Of a DNA stretch of 64,000 nt, positions 45,929-50,865 are shown in pieces. Where the stretch lies: the NCBI GenBank assembly GCA_020723405.1, contig DYIY01000001.1, positions 310,001 to 374,000 of the forward strand, read 5' to 3'. Source of the DNA: Thiobacillus denitrificans (GTDB lineage: Bacteria; Pseudomonadota; Gammaproteobacteria; Burkholderiales; Thiobacillaceae). The stretch's first letter is position 1, and the number at the start of each line of letters is the position of its first letter. The position numbers and the translations under genes were made by a program. The notes under the pieces are model-generated. The model saw only the letters and a program-made list of their open reading frames with translations. It did no database searches and was not told the DNA's origin.

Positions 45929-46006
45929 ATGCACCGGACGACCCCCAAGGGGCGCCAGGGGTGGCTATTCCCCGCGCCCAACGCCAGCAAGGCAGGCCAG
46001 CCATGA
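45929..46006 (+). CDS. 25-residue leader ORF coupled to the FNR/DNR-type gene
   Basis: ATG at 45929 follows a strong ribosome site AAAGGAGA (45916-45923). The ORF encodes MHRTTPKGRQGWLFPAPNAS plus five residues and ends in a TGA overlapping the regulator's ATG (ATGA at 46003-46006). The regulator itself has no comparable Shine-Dalgarno at 46003, so its translation probably depends on this ORF. It is short and basic with no homology known to me. Confidence 0.6.
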   Translation: MHRTTPKGRQGWLFPAPNASKAGQP

Positions 46007-46737
46007 ACCGTCTGGCCATTTCCCCCACCCGTCTGCCCCAGACCATGGCCCGCCTGGCCTACTTCCAGGGCTGGCCCATGGACGTGTTGGTGCGCCTGTC
46101 GGCCGGTGCCAAGGTGTTGAGCCTGGAAAAGAACGACTGGCTGGGCCGCAAGGGTGACCCCCTGCAAAGCCTCTACGTGGTGATGGACGGGCTCATCCGC
46201 TGCTTCATCCCCCTGCCCAACAACACGGAGCGGGTGGTGTCCCTGGTGGATACCGGCCACAGCTTCGGCGAAGCCAGTCTCATGCTCCAGGCGCCCAGCC
46301 CCTATCACGCCGTCGCGGGCCGGGATACCCGCCTGCTGGCCGTGGACGCCATGGTCTTCCGCCGGGAAATCGGCCAGAACCTGAATCTGTGCCGGCAAAC
46401 CCTGGAAAGGGTGGCCGTCACCTGCATGGACAATCTGCGCGATACGGAAATCAGTGCCCAGCGATCCAGCGCCCAGCGGGTGGCCAGCTACCTGATGCAG
46501 CATCAGCCCAGCCCGGACAGTCAGGCCTTCCCCATCTCCCTGCCCGGGCGCAAACAGGATGTGGCCGCCAAGCTGGGGCTCACCCAGGAGACCTTCTCCC
46601 GGGTGCTGCATGCCCTGGACAAGCAGGGTGTGATCCAGATCACCGGTAGTCGGATCAATGTGGCTGATGGCCGGAAACTGGCGGAAATGACTGCCAAGCG
46701 GCAGTTTTCCAGCCAGGGGACCGCCCTGGCAAATTGA
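46003..46737 (+). CDS. Crp/Fnr-family regulator, DNR-like
   Basis: Transcription regulator of 244 residues: cyclic-nucleotide-binding-like beta-barrel (about 20-125), dimerisation helix (about 128-160) and a winged HTH (about 175-235, KQDVAAKLGLTQ then ETFSR at 196-200). The E..SR spacing in the recognition helix is that of FNR, which reads TTGAT half-sites. There is no N-terminal cysteine cluster; the only cysteines are C67, C130 and C141, so it is not an oxygen-sensing Fe-S FNR but closer to DNR/NnrR types. A perfect FNR box overlaps its stop codon and precedes fccA. Confidence 0.85.
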   Translation: MNRLAISPTRLPQTMARLAYFQGWPMDVLVRLSAGAKVLSLEKNDWLGRKGDPLQSLYVVMDGLIRCFIPLPNNTERVVSLVDTGHSFGEASLMLQAPSPYHAVAGRDTRLLAVDAMVFRREIGQNLNLCRQTLERVAVTCMDNLRDTEISAQRSSAQRVASYLMQHQPSPDSQAFPISLPGRKQDVAAKLGLTQETFSRVLHALDKQGVIQITGSRINVADGRKLAEMTAKRQFSSQGTALAN

Positions 46738-46907: not shown

Positions 46908-47333
46908 ATGAAATTGAACAAATACGTGACCTGCCTGCTCGCCGCCGCCTCCCTGGCGGCCCCCGCAACCCTCCTGGCAGCGGATGCCACGGTGGTGGCG
47001 GCCATCCCCGCCCCGGCTCCCGCCGTGGCCGACCTGAAGGCCGGCATCCCGGAGGAGAAGCCCTGCCTGATCGCCGGCTGGGAGAATCCCCGTAGCGTCT
47101 GCGTGGCCCATACCAAGACCATCGCCGCCACCTGCCTGATCTGCCATGGCCCCAACGGCAGGAGCCTGGGGGCCATCCCCAGTCTGGCCGGCCAGGACAA
47201 GGCCTACCTGGTGGCCGCCATGAAGGACTTCAAGTCCGGCAAGCGGGAATCCACGGTCATGCAGAAATACGCCGTCGGTTACAGCGACCAGGAATACGAA
47301 GACCTGGCCGAACTGTTCGCCTCCATCAAGTAA
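46908..47333 (+). CDS. fccA: Small cytochrome c subunit, FccA-like
   Basis: Exported 141-residue c-type cytochrome with a signal peptide (about 1-23) and one heme-binding site, CLICHGPNGRS (CxxCH); Met ligation may come from VMQKYA. It is much shorter than the diheme FccA of Allochromatium, so it is a monoheme form. The ATG at 46908 has GGAGGAG upstream; an earlier ATG in frame is unlikely. It lies 17 bp before fccB and would receive electrons from its flavin. Confidence 0.85.
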   Translation: MKLNKYVTCLLAAASLAAPATLLAADATVVAAIPAPAPAVADLKAGIPEEKPCLIAGWENPRSVCVAHTKTIAATCLICHGPNGRSLGAIPSLAGQDKAYLVAAMKDFKSGKRESTVMQKYAVGYSDQEYEDLAELFASIK

Positions 47334-47350: not shown

Positions 47351-48622
47351 ATGAGCATGCAACGTCGCGACTTCCTGAAATTCTCCGCTACCGGACTGGC
47401 CGCCGCCCTGGCCGGCCTGTCCACTTCCCGTTCCGCCCTGGCCGCCGCCAAACCCCGCGTGGTGGTGGTGGGCGCCGGCTTCGGCGGCGCCACCTGCGCC
47501 AAGTACCTGCGCCTGTGGGACCAGAACATCGAGGTCACCCTGGTCGAGCCCAACGACCGCTTCTACTCCTGCCCCATGTCCAACTGGGTCATCGGCGGCA
47601 TCCGCCAGATGGACGACATCATCAAGAGCTACGACCACCTGCCCGGCTACGGCATCAAGATGGTCAGGGACACGGCCGTCGGAGTGGATGCGGACAAGCG
47701 CATCCTGACCACCGCCAAGGGCGACAAGCTGCCCTATGACCGGTTGATCCTGGCCCCCGGGGTGGAGTTCATGACCGACCAGATCGAAGGCTATGCCGAG
47801 GGCGAAGCCGCGGGCAAGGTGCTGCACTCCTGGAAGGCCGGCCCCCAGACCCTGGCCCTGCGCAAACAACTGGAAGCCATGCCCGACGGCGGCGTGTTCG
47901 TCATCGCCAGCCCGCCGCCCCCCGGCCGTTGCGTGTCCGGCCCCTACGAGCGGGCGAGCCTGGTGGCCCACTATTTCAAGCAGCACAAGCCCAAGTCCAA
48001 GATCATTATGCTGGACGGCCACTTCGACGTGGTTTCCAAGGGCCCCATGTTCAAGGCTGCCTGGAAGAAATATTACCCGGGCATGATCGAGCACCGGCCC
48101 TACAACCTGGTGACCAAGGTGGACCACAAGTCCATGGTGGTGACCAGCGAGTTCGAGGATGTGAAGGCCGACGTGATCAACATCGTGCCCAAGCAACGGG
48201 CCGGAGCCATCTGCGGCATCGCCGGGGTGCGCAGCGACAGCGCCGGGGTGTGGTGCCCGGTGGACGGGGTCACCTACGAATCCAGGCGCGTGCGCAACAT
48301 CCACGTGCTGGGGGACTCGGTGGCCTCCAACATGCCCAAGTCGGCCCACGTCTCCAACAACCAGGCCAAGATCTGTGCCGCCGCCCTGGTGGAAATCTTC
48401 AACGGCCGGGAGCCGGATCCCTATCCGGTCATCGGCAGCACCAGCTATTCGGCCACCACGGACCAGACCTCCGGCCCCATCGCCGTGGTCATGCGCTACG
48501 ACCCGGACAAGGAAGCCTACATCCGTCAGCCCATGGGCGGAGCCGCCCCCGAAAGCGACGAAATCAACTTCCACTACAACCTGGCCTGGTTCGAGAACAT
48601 CTGGGCGGAAACCCTGGGCTGA
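47351..48622 (+). CDS. fccB: Sulfide dehydrogenase (flavocytochrome c) flavoprotein subunit
   Basis: Periplasmic FAD protein oxidising sulfide to sulfur or polysulfide, 423 residues. It begins with a Tat signal (MQRRDFLKFSATGLAAALAG). The FAD fold VVVVGAGFGGATCAKYL is followed by RFYSCPMSN (C74), the expected covalent FAD-binding Cys of flavocytochrome c. Later cysteines in PPPPGRCVSGPYERA and NQAKICAAALV fit the redox-active disulfide. fccA is immediately upstream. Confidence 0.92.
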   Translation: MSMQRRDFLKFSATGLAAALAGLSTSRSALAAAKPRVVVVGAGFGGATCAKYLRLWDQNIEVTLVEPNDRFYSCPMSNWVIGGIRQMDDIIKSYDHLPGYGIKMVRDTAVGVDADKRILTTAKGDKLPYDRLILAPGVEFMTDQIEGYAEGEAAGKVLHSWKAGPQTLALRKQLEAMPDGGVFVIASPPPPGRCVSGPYERASLVAHYFKQHKPKSKIIMLDGHFDVVSKGPMFKAAWKKYYPGMIEHRPYNLVTKVDHKSMVVTSEFEDVKADVINIVPKQRAGAICGIAGVRSDSAGVWCPVDGVTYESRRVRNIHVLGDSVASNMPKSAHVSNNQAKICAAALVEIFNGREPDPYPVIGSTSYSATTDQTSGPIAVVMRYDPDKEAYIRQPMGGAAPESDEINFHYNLAWFENIWAETLG

Positions 48623-48772: not shown

Positions 48773-49981
48773 ATGTTCCGCAAAAACCTGAATGAAAAAT
48801 ACGTGCCCATGTATCACCTGGGCGCCCTGGGATCGGGTGGCCTGGCCATCTCGTTCTTCCTCTACCTCAACTTCCTGCTGCCCCACGAGAGCGGCATCAT
48901 CTCCTTCGACCAGCTCTGGCCGGTGATCACCGGCGTCCCCACCATGAAGGCCCTGTTCATCGGCCTGTGCCTGTTCATCGTCTTCGCCCTGGCCATCGTG
49001 CACTTCTCCCTGATGATCTGGAACACCCGGGAGTTCGCCCTCTACAAGAAGACCGAGGCCTACCGGAACCTGCGCAATTCCAGCGCGGAGATCAGCCTGA
49101 TGGTGGTGCCCCTGACCATGGCCATGACGGTCAACGTCATCTTCGTCACCTCGTCCCTGCTGATCCCCGGCCTGTGGGATTACATCGAGTACCTGTTCCC
49201 CCTGGCCATGACCGCCTTCCTGGCCATCGGCGTGTACGCCATGCGCATCATGGGCGACTACTTCGTGCGCATGTTCCTGCACAAGGGCTACAGCTTCGAA
49301 CAGAACAACAGCCTGGCCCCCATGGTGTCCATCTTCGCCCTGTCCATGATCGCCGTGGGCATGGCCGCCCCCGCCGCCATGAGCCACGTGCGGGAAATCG
49401 TCGCCCTGAGTGTGTTTCTCTCCTCCTTCTTCGCCACCTGCGCGGCCCTGCTGATGGTGGTCATGCTGGTCATCGGCTTCCATAGCATGCTCACCCACGG
49501 CATCCGTCTGGAAGCCGCCCCCAGCCTGTGGCTGATGATCCCCATCACCACCCTGCTGGGCATCACCTTCATGCGCACCTCCCACGGCCTGGGCGAGGCC
49601 ATGGGGGCCCACATCAGCTCCGGCGAGGTCTATGCGGTGCTGTGCGGCATCTTCACCATCCAGATGGTGTTCGGCCTGATCGGCTTCTCCGTCATGAAGC
49701 GCCTGAACTACTTCAAGGACTTCATCTACGGCGAGAAGATCCATCCCACCACCTATGCCCTGATCTGCCCCGGCGTGGCCTTCCCCGTGTTCGGCCTGTT
49801 CGTGGTGAAGTTCGGCCTGCTGGGCAACACCCTGATCTCCATGTGGACCCCGGCCCACTACCTGTTCATGTTGCCCATCCTGCTGATCCAGTTGAAGACC
49901 CTGCAGGTCCTGCTGGTGCTGTTGCGCCGCCTGCAACTGGTGCCATCCGCCAAACCCGCCCTGGCCGCCCAGCCTGCCTGA
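48773..49981 (+). CDS. Ten-helix membrane protein of the fcc cluster
   Basis: Integral membrane protein of 402 residues with about ten hydrophobic helices (near 13-33, 55-78, 105-128, 139-160, 180-203, 209-235, 250-270, 288-310, 326-350, 360-388), a count that fits the TDT/SLAC1 anion-channel architecture. Family is uncertain: I do not recognise a signature motif. It lies 150 bp after fccB and 82 bp before two secreted proteins. Transport of a sulfur compound, or export linked to sulfide oxidation, is inference. The ATG at 48773 follows GAGGAG. Confidence 0.6.
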   Translation: MFRKNLNEKYVPMYHLGALGSGGLAISFFLYLNFLLPHESGIISFDQLWPVITGVPTMKALFIGLCLFIVFALAIVHFSLMIWNTREFALYKKTEAYRNLRNSSAEISLMVVPLTMAMTVNVIFVTSSLLIPGLWDYIEYLFPLAMTAFLAIGVYAMRIMGDYFVRMFLHKGYSFEQNNSLAPMVSIFALSMIAVGMAAPAAMSHVREIVALSVFLSSFFATCAALLMVVMLVIGFHSMLTHGIRLEAAPSLWLMIPITTLLGITFMRTSHGLGEAMGAHISSGEVYAVLCGIFTIQMVFGLIGFSVMKRLNYFKDFIYGEKIHPTTYALICPGVAFPVFGLFVVKFGLLGNTLISMWTPAHYLFMLPILLIQLKTLQVLLVLLRRLQLVPSAKPALAAQPA

Positions 49982-50063: not shown

Positions 50064-50441
50064 ATGAAACGCATCGCCCTCCTCTGCCTGGCCGCCCTGT
50101 CCGCCTCTGCCTGGGCCGCCGCCCCCCTCACCGCCGAGCAGACCAAAACCCTCATCGCCGGCAACTCCGCCTCGGGCTTCGCCGATGCCCTGGGCAAGAA
50201 CTACACCGCCTACTACTCCCCGGAAGGCAAGCTCACCCAGGTGCTGGATAACGGCAAGAAGCGGGTGGGCACCTGGAAGATCACCGACGACGGCCATTTC
50301 TGCACCCAGTTCCCCACGGAAAGCGAGCGCTGCACCAAGGTGGTCCCCTCGGAGAACGGGGAATATCAACGGGTGAAGGATGACGGCATGGTCACCAACA
50401 CCTTCAAGAAGTTCTACAAGGGCAACGCCTACAAGTATTGA
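50064..50441 (+). CDS. Secreted paralog 1, DUF995-like
   Basis: Exported 125-residue protein of unknown function with a signal peptide (about 1-19). The mature part has YTAYYSPEGKLTQVLDNGKK, then VGTWKITDDGHFCTQFPTES and ERCTKVVP, and ends RVKDDGMVTNTFKKFYKGN. Two cysteines, 11 residues apart, are shared with its neighbour and could pair. The VGxWxIxDDGHFC pattern recalls DUF995-type lipocalin-like proteins; this is from memory. It belongs to the fcc run. Confidence 0.7.
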   Translation: MKRIALLCLAALSASAWAAAPLTAEQTKTLIAGNSASGFADALGKNYTAYYSPEGKLTQVLDNGKKRVGTWKITDDGHFCTQFPTESERCTKVVPSENGEYQRVKDDGMVTNTFKKFYKGNAYKY

Positions 50442-50487
50442 CCCGATAGGCAGCGGCATTCCGCCGCCGCCGCTACCAAGGAGCACC

Positions 50488-50865
50488 ATGATGAAACACG
50501 CGATGCTGTTTGCCTTGCTGTTCGCCACCGGTTCCAGCCTGGCCGGGGACGGCCTGACCGCCGCCAAGGTCAAGGACCTGATGATCGACAAGACCATCGA
50601 AGGACATAACGAGATCAAGGACCTGGACTACACGGTGTATTTCTCCACCGACGGCAAGGTCAACTTCGTGACCGCCAAGGGCAAACGTGTCGGCAACTGG
50701 CGGATCGCCGACGACGGCCACTTCTGCACGGCCTTCCCCACCGAGCCGGAGCTGTGCACGATGATCATCCCCCACGGCGATGCGGCCTACCGCCGCGTCA
50801 AGGATGACGGCACGCCCACCCACACCCTGAAGAAGTTCACGGCCGGGAACATCAACAACTACTGA
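50488..50865 (+). CDS. Secreted paralog 2, DUF995-like
   Basis: Second exported protein of 125 residues, alignable to paralog 1 along the whole mature length: YTVYFSTDGKVNFVTAKGKR, VGNWRIADDGHFCTAFPTEP, ELCTMIIP and RVKDDGTPTHTLKKFTAGN. Both cysteines are kept. Tandem duplication is clear but divergence is considerable, so the two may bind different partners. AAGGAG precedes the start; the ATG at 50491 is equally possible. Confidence 0.7.
   Translation: MMKHAMLFALLFATGSSLAGDGLTAAKVKDLMIDKTIEGHNEIKDLDYTVYFSTDGKVNFVTAKGKRVGNWRIADDGHFCTAFPTEPELCTMIIPHGDAAYRRVKDDGTPTHTLKKFTAGNINNY

Follow-up and report, generated by a model that had tools for sequence, protein, structure and literature searches.

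The window, the whole stretch of 64,000 nucleotides of Thiobacillus denitrificans DNA that was analysed, carries on its forward strand a block of genes that runs from a Crp/Fnr-family regulator through a flavocytochrome c gene pair and a membrane protein gene to two genes for small exported proteins, here called W1 and W2 (coordinates are positions in the window):

46003-46737, + strand: Crp/Fnr-family regulator, first gene of the conserved block (Pfam cNMP_binding and HTH_Crp_2; start codon inferred)
46908-47333, + strand: fccA, monoheme cytochrome c subunit (Pfam Cytochrom_C, one CxxCH; start codon inferred)
47351-48622, + strand: fccB, FCSD flavoprotein (Pfam FCSD_central, 136 bits; Cys42 and Cys161 present, Ser in place of Cys337)
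48773-49981, + strand: TsoY-family membrane protein (NF047644, 425.9 bits; invariant Cys332 in CPGV; SLAC1/TehA-like predicted fold)
50064-50441, + strand: W1, exported protein of 125 aa with a predicted helix and eight-stranded barrel, Cys80 and Cys90 (open reading frame and translation)
50488-50865, + strand: W2, exported 125-aa paralog of W1 (45% identity)

An earlier note on this DNA had described W1 and W2 as two neighbouring exported paralogs of 125 residues with two common cysteines, lying downstream of fccAB and a membrane gene in the same direction and with short gaps. Both points are borne out. The open reading frames encode proteins that are 45% identical across all 125 residues (E = 1e-37), tsoY and W1 are 82 bases apart, and 46 bases separate W1 from W2 on the same strand. 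The stop codon of W2 falls at 50865, the end coordinate that the earlier note had given. An AGGAG-like, Shine-Dalgarno-like site lies ahead of the ATG in both genes, and both proteins have, by eye, a signal peptide with a basic start, a hydrophobic core and an AxA-like end. A common transcript for the block is suggested only; a scan for promoters and terminators does not settle co-transcription. The "VGxWxIxDDGHFC" core singled out earlier is present in W1 and W2, but is for the most part confined to them; most close orthologs have N or Q in place of His78.

Orthologs of W1 are found in eight other genomes of the genus at 64-82% identity. The dN/dS ratios between orthologs, estimated by the Nei-Gojobori method on the mature part in related species, are mostly 0.01-0.5, which indicates that W1 and W2 are genuine genes under purifying selection. 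In the tree, the W1 and W2 sequences fall into a single clade (support 96/95), within which they separate cleanly (100/98), the W2 clade including the orthologs of G007, G011 and G013 (100/98). This split indicates that W1 and W2 had already duplicated before the species compared diverged.

The pair fccA-fccB resembles that of flavocytochrome c sulfide dehydrogenase (1fcd, 3vrd, 5n1t), and the window FccB has the FCSD domain (136 bits; the cut-off is 27). Alignment with 1fcd shows that Cys42, the site of covalent FAD attachment, and Cys161 are retained; Cys337, however, is replaced by Ser, leaving the redox-active Cys161-Cys337 pair incomplete. In the A. vinosum enzyme these two cysteines are regarded as forming a disulfide beside the FAD, and in a sulfide:quinone reductase replacement of the equivalent cysteines by serine abolished activity (PMC3504083). 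The window FccAB may thus not be a classical sulfide dehydrogenase. The label fccAB used earlier is right for the gene pair and the domain, but the copy is divergent, and one of its active-site cysteines is missing.

Ser337 is not peculiar to the window. It is present in all 17 members checked of the window FccB clade (support 100/99), 12 in a first set and five in a second (G010, G016, G025, G029 and G030); the loci are 47351-48622 of the window, L020-L028, L061, L151-L153 and L175-L182. The 14 other FCSD paralogs sampled from the genus retain Cys337, as do all the more remote orthologs within the family. Besides this fccB, seven FCSD genes of the window genome (G000) exceed the cut-off, and each encodes an intact Cys161-Cys337 pair. 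FCSD genes are numerous in these genomes: G000 has eight that pass the Pfam cut-off, and the other species of the genus have two to nine matches. The idea that a cysteine at position 262 of 1fcd stands in for Cys337 was dropped, because paralogs with an intact Cys337 have this cysteine too and G005 lacks it. A specific tie of Ser337 to tsoY or W was likewise rejected, because sister FccBs that have neither gene beside them share the serine.

The membrane protein that follows fccAB had been reported earlier without a name. It is present where described and can be named: with 425.9 bits against NCBIfam NF047644 (cut-off 150), it is a clear member of the TsoY family. UxxV is the motif listed for TsoY selenoproteins in a 2026 review (PMC13188914). 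Cys332 is invariant in the window TsoY and all aligned relatives, and its setting in the window copy, CPGV, fits the cysteine form of this selenocysteine motif; the window copy differs from the selenoproteins in carrying Cys instead of selenocysteine. An AlphaFold model of TsoY built from 11 sequences has a pLDDT of 76, and its best Foldseek match is TehA/SLAC1 (TM 0.57 on the query and 0.73 on the target, E = 1e-3). Divergent TsoY copies at L154:6845-7963 and L155:1209-2327 lie above the seleno-TsoY equivalog cut-off and adjoin a gene for a TauE-type sulfite exporter; the L154 copy, from a sister genome, is also above the Pfam SLAC1 (PF03595) cut-off. From these copies and their neighbour, TsoY looks like a protein of the SLAC1/TehA superfamily, in line with the TehA-like fold predicted for the window protein. 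The tsoY genes found in five gammaproteobacterial genomes, a class label inferred from gene content, have neither W nor fcc nearby.

How constant is the block? In a sample of 23 genomes of the genus, tsoY is present in 10, fcc-linked genes of the W1 or W2 type in 10, and both in nine (Fisher P = 1e-4, uncorrected for kinship). The order fccB-tsoY-W is found on the contig at eight loci of the genus; the contig of G002 begins inside tsoY. Upstream, fccA precedes fccB in the relatives, which include the named "Hydrogenophilales bacterium 28-61-23", and a crp gene precedes fccA also in G004, G005, G011, G014, G017 and G018. The window genes rapZ, hprK, hepS and ubiX, which lie outside the block, are absent from the loci of the relatives; the block has therefore been kept amid changing surroundings.

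Within the same FccB clade, W genes are found at nine of ten tsoY loci vs one of nine loci without tsoY (nominal P = 0.001, the counts not being independent events). W thus goes with tsoY rather than with fcc as such. Eight fccB orthologs of the clade without tsoY, from G001, G010, G015, G016 and G020 and from the other genera G025, G029 and G030, have neither tsoY nor W beside them in stretches of 1.5 kb or more. G013 has fccA-fccB-W2 and no tsoY, in a genome that is 58% complete. In G017, 99% complete, crp-fccA-fccB-tsoY is present but W is absent genome-wide. W1 stands alone in six genomes and W2 alone in one; each copy is therefore dispensable. W1 and W2 also occur in a different order in G011 than in G000.

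The HMM search with the two-protein alignment that had been proposed earlier returned no match in the genome contigs, and with nine W1 orthologs as the query the only genomes recovered were already-known ones, all of close relatives. With a profile of 15 sequences, about 5-8% of the genomes sampled give W-like proteins: 19 of 399 in the order and 29 of 369 in the class. None of the roughly 45 W-like loci outside the genus whose neighbourhoods were read lies beside fccB or tsoY; most stand alone, and their neighbours vary. The earlier note had staked its module on homologs occurring near fcc genes. This holds in part: inside the genus the block is conserved, but outside it the homologs are widespread and were never seen beside fcc. 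Some of the distant loci have features of their own. At L104:2940-6944 genes resembling soxX and soxA are found about 2.4 kb from a W-like gene, at L058:6067-9315 a W-like triplet has a caspase-domain (Peptidase_C14) gene among its members, and W-like genes stand in tandem at L059:286-1111. In two genomes of the class (L119:582-1148 and L120:2316-2903) a W-like domain is fused behind a Kazal-type protease inhibitor domain.

Searches of Pfam, NCBIfam and PDB sequences placed W1 and W2 in no family above threshold, and viral contigs gave no W-like match. A plasmid match in Azospirillum, to a gene annotated "WD40 repeat protein", is weak and partial and was discounted, as were phmmer matches in the PDB to designed beta-trefoils, which are short and repeated. 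The nearest relatives by sequence are the DUF995 proteins (Pfam PF06191), which are small and, like W, have no assigned function. Thirteen of 45 W-family members match this model weakly (best E = 2.7e-4), but W1 reaches 13.3 bits against a gathering cut-off of 20, and W2 does not match. The literature searched contained nothing on the function of DUF995. W1 and W2 are members of a broad, dispersed and unnamed family that is a remote, sub-threshold relative of DUF995.

An AlphaFold2 model of W1 built from 45 sequences (pLDDT 96.6, pTM 0.87) confidently predicts one helix followed by eight strands. The best Foldseek matches in the PDB are TP0435/Tpp17 (4u3q, TM 0.60-0.66, E 4e-3), ToxS, avidins and designed barrels, none of them at E <= 0.001, and the model is closest to calycin-type barrels. 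TP0435 is described as a calycin that contains an NlpE domain (PMC7521688). The lipocalin-like barrel guessed earlier is therefore upheld at the level of the predicted fold but not at that of the family: W is predicted to have the eight strands and one helix of the calycin and lipocalin-type barrels (TP0435/Tpp17, the NlpE N-domain, avidins), but no sequence similarity to them appears in PDB or Pfam searches, and none of the 45 members matches the Pfam lipocalin model, or Pfam NlpE (PF04170) at E <= 0.1. Residues kept throughout the family are G55, W71, C80 and C90, with G108 and G120 nearly so. Cys80 and Cys90 (residues 61 and 71 of the mature protein) are placed on neighbouring strands of one predicted hairpin. 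Both are present in 44 of 45 homologs and both are missing in the remaining one. Being kept as a pair and lost as a pair is as expected of a disulfide, which is the simplest reading of the two residues but is suggested only.

These results bear on what W1 and W2 do. Our preferred reading, held tentatively, is that they are accessories of a module formed by FccAB(Ser337) and TsoY, and bind either its proteins or a small sulfur compound. The main rival, a serious one though somewhat less likely, is that they are instead general-purpose envelope proteins which settled beside fcc-tsoY in one ancestor and were kept there by descent, with no functional tie. The unrelated surroundings of the homologs in the 19 and 29 genomes of the order and class agree with such proteins, as does the absence of W from G017, and the co-occurrence within the genus could stem from one insertion inherited by related species. 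Descent alone fits less well with the retention of the block while its outer neighbours change, or with the persistence of W after tsoY at nine of ten loci under purifying selection even though dS among the W1 genes at these loci reaches about 1-1.9. The old W1/W2 duplication has also been retained. The nearest fold match, TP0435/Tpp17 with its NlpE domain (PMC7521688), and the cysteine pair raise the further thought that W1 and W2 are envelope-stress or redox sensors like the NlpE N-terminal domain, reporting the state of the periplasm. We regard this as quite improbable: Pfam NlpE matches 0 of 45 members, W1 and W2 have no lipobox and the block has no sensor kinase.

Small disulfide-braced barrels are often inhibitors. 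W1 and W2 might on this general ground act on periplasmic or foreign enzymes, and the fusion of a W domain to a Kazal protease-inhibitor domain in G523 and G740 points the same way; yet there are two such fusions only, both in distant members, and the block contains no protease, so that we give an inhibitor role little credence. Two conserved cysteines beside sulfur genes may also call to mind direct binding of sulfur, heme or a metal by the cysteines themselves, as the earlier note had guessed. This is very improbable. Homologs remote from sulfur genes conserve the cysteines just as well; where one is lost the other is lost too, and the two are predicted on adjacent strands of a single hairpin. 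They lie ten residues apart with no CxxCH of the kind by which c-type cytochromes bind heme, and the family alignment has no conserved His or Met. The guess of a heme or metal ligand is accordingly unlikely for residues that behave as a disulfide pair, and ligation of heme, metal or persulfide by Cys80/Cys90 was considered and set aside.

On the preferred reading, that of an accessory to FccAB and TsoY, W1 and W2 would be exported by the Sec route to the periplasm and would be about 105 residues long once cleaved. In the mature form, a helix at the N-terminus would be followed by a calycin-like barrel of eight strands, with a single hairpin disulfide (Cys80-Cys90) as its brace. An ancestral W copy would have been recruited beside fccA-fccB-tsoY in the genus and then duplicated. 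The barrels might bind the FccAB or TsoY proteins as a bound subunit; alternatively, they might carry a small sulfur compound between the flavoprotein and the channel-like TsoY. A precedent for the former, and a precedent only, is the flavocytochrome c of Thioalkalivibrio paradoxus, whose crystal structure includes a small periplasmic protein, CopC, bound to it (PDB 5n1t; reference in PMC12010331). CopC, however, binds copper and has no similarity to W in any search made. A partner or ligand role of this kind is inferred.

The analysis suggests that W1 and W2, FccAB and TsoY may cooperate in periplasmic sulfur metabolism. The earlier proposal of a periplasmic module acting with sulfide oxidation gains from the conservation of the block in the genus, but its second half is weakened because FccB has Ser in place of the redox-active Cys337. 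A bolder version, which we consider doubtful, is that the block encodes a new periplasmic module for the oxidation of sulfur or thiols and no ordinary sulfide dehydrogenase: a flavocytochrome c lacking the classic active-site disulfide would work with a SLAC1-like TsoY and with a dedicated pair of calycin-like barrels, which would keep hold of its substrate or product or pass it on.

The conserved linkage gives an undescribed family of secreted barrels its first metabolic context. TsoY, a family about which little is known, is connected with a flavocytochrome c locus and, by its apparent likeness, with the SLAC1 superfamily. The Ser337 FccB clade is the more striking side result: an entire clade is without one of the two catalytic cysteines, and counting fccB genes as sulfide oxidation can therefore mislead.
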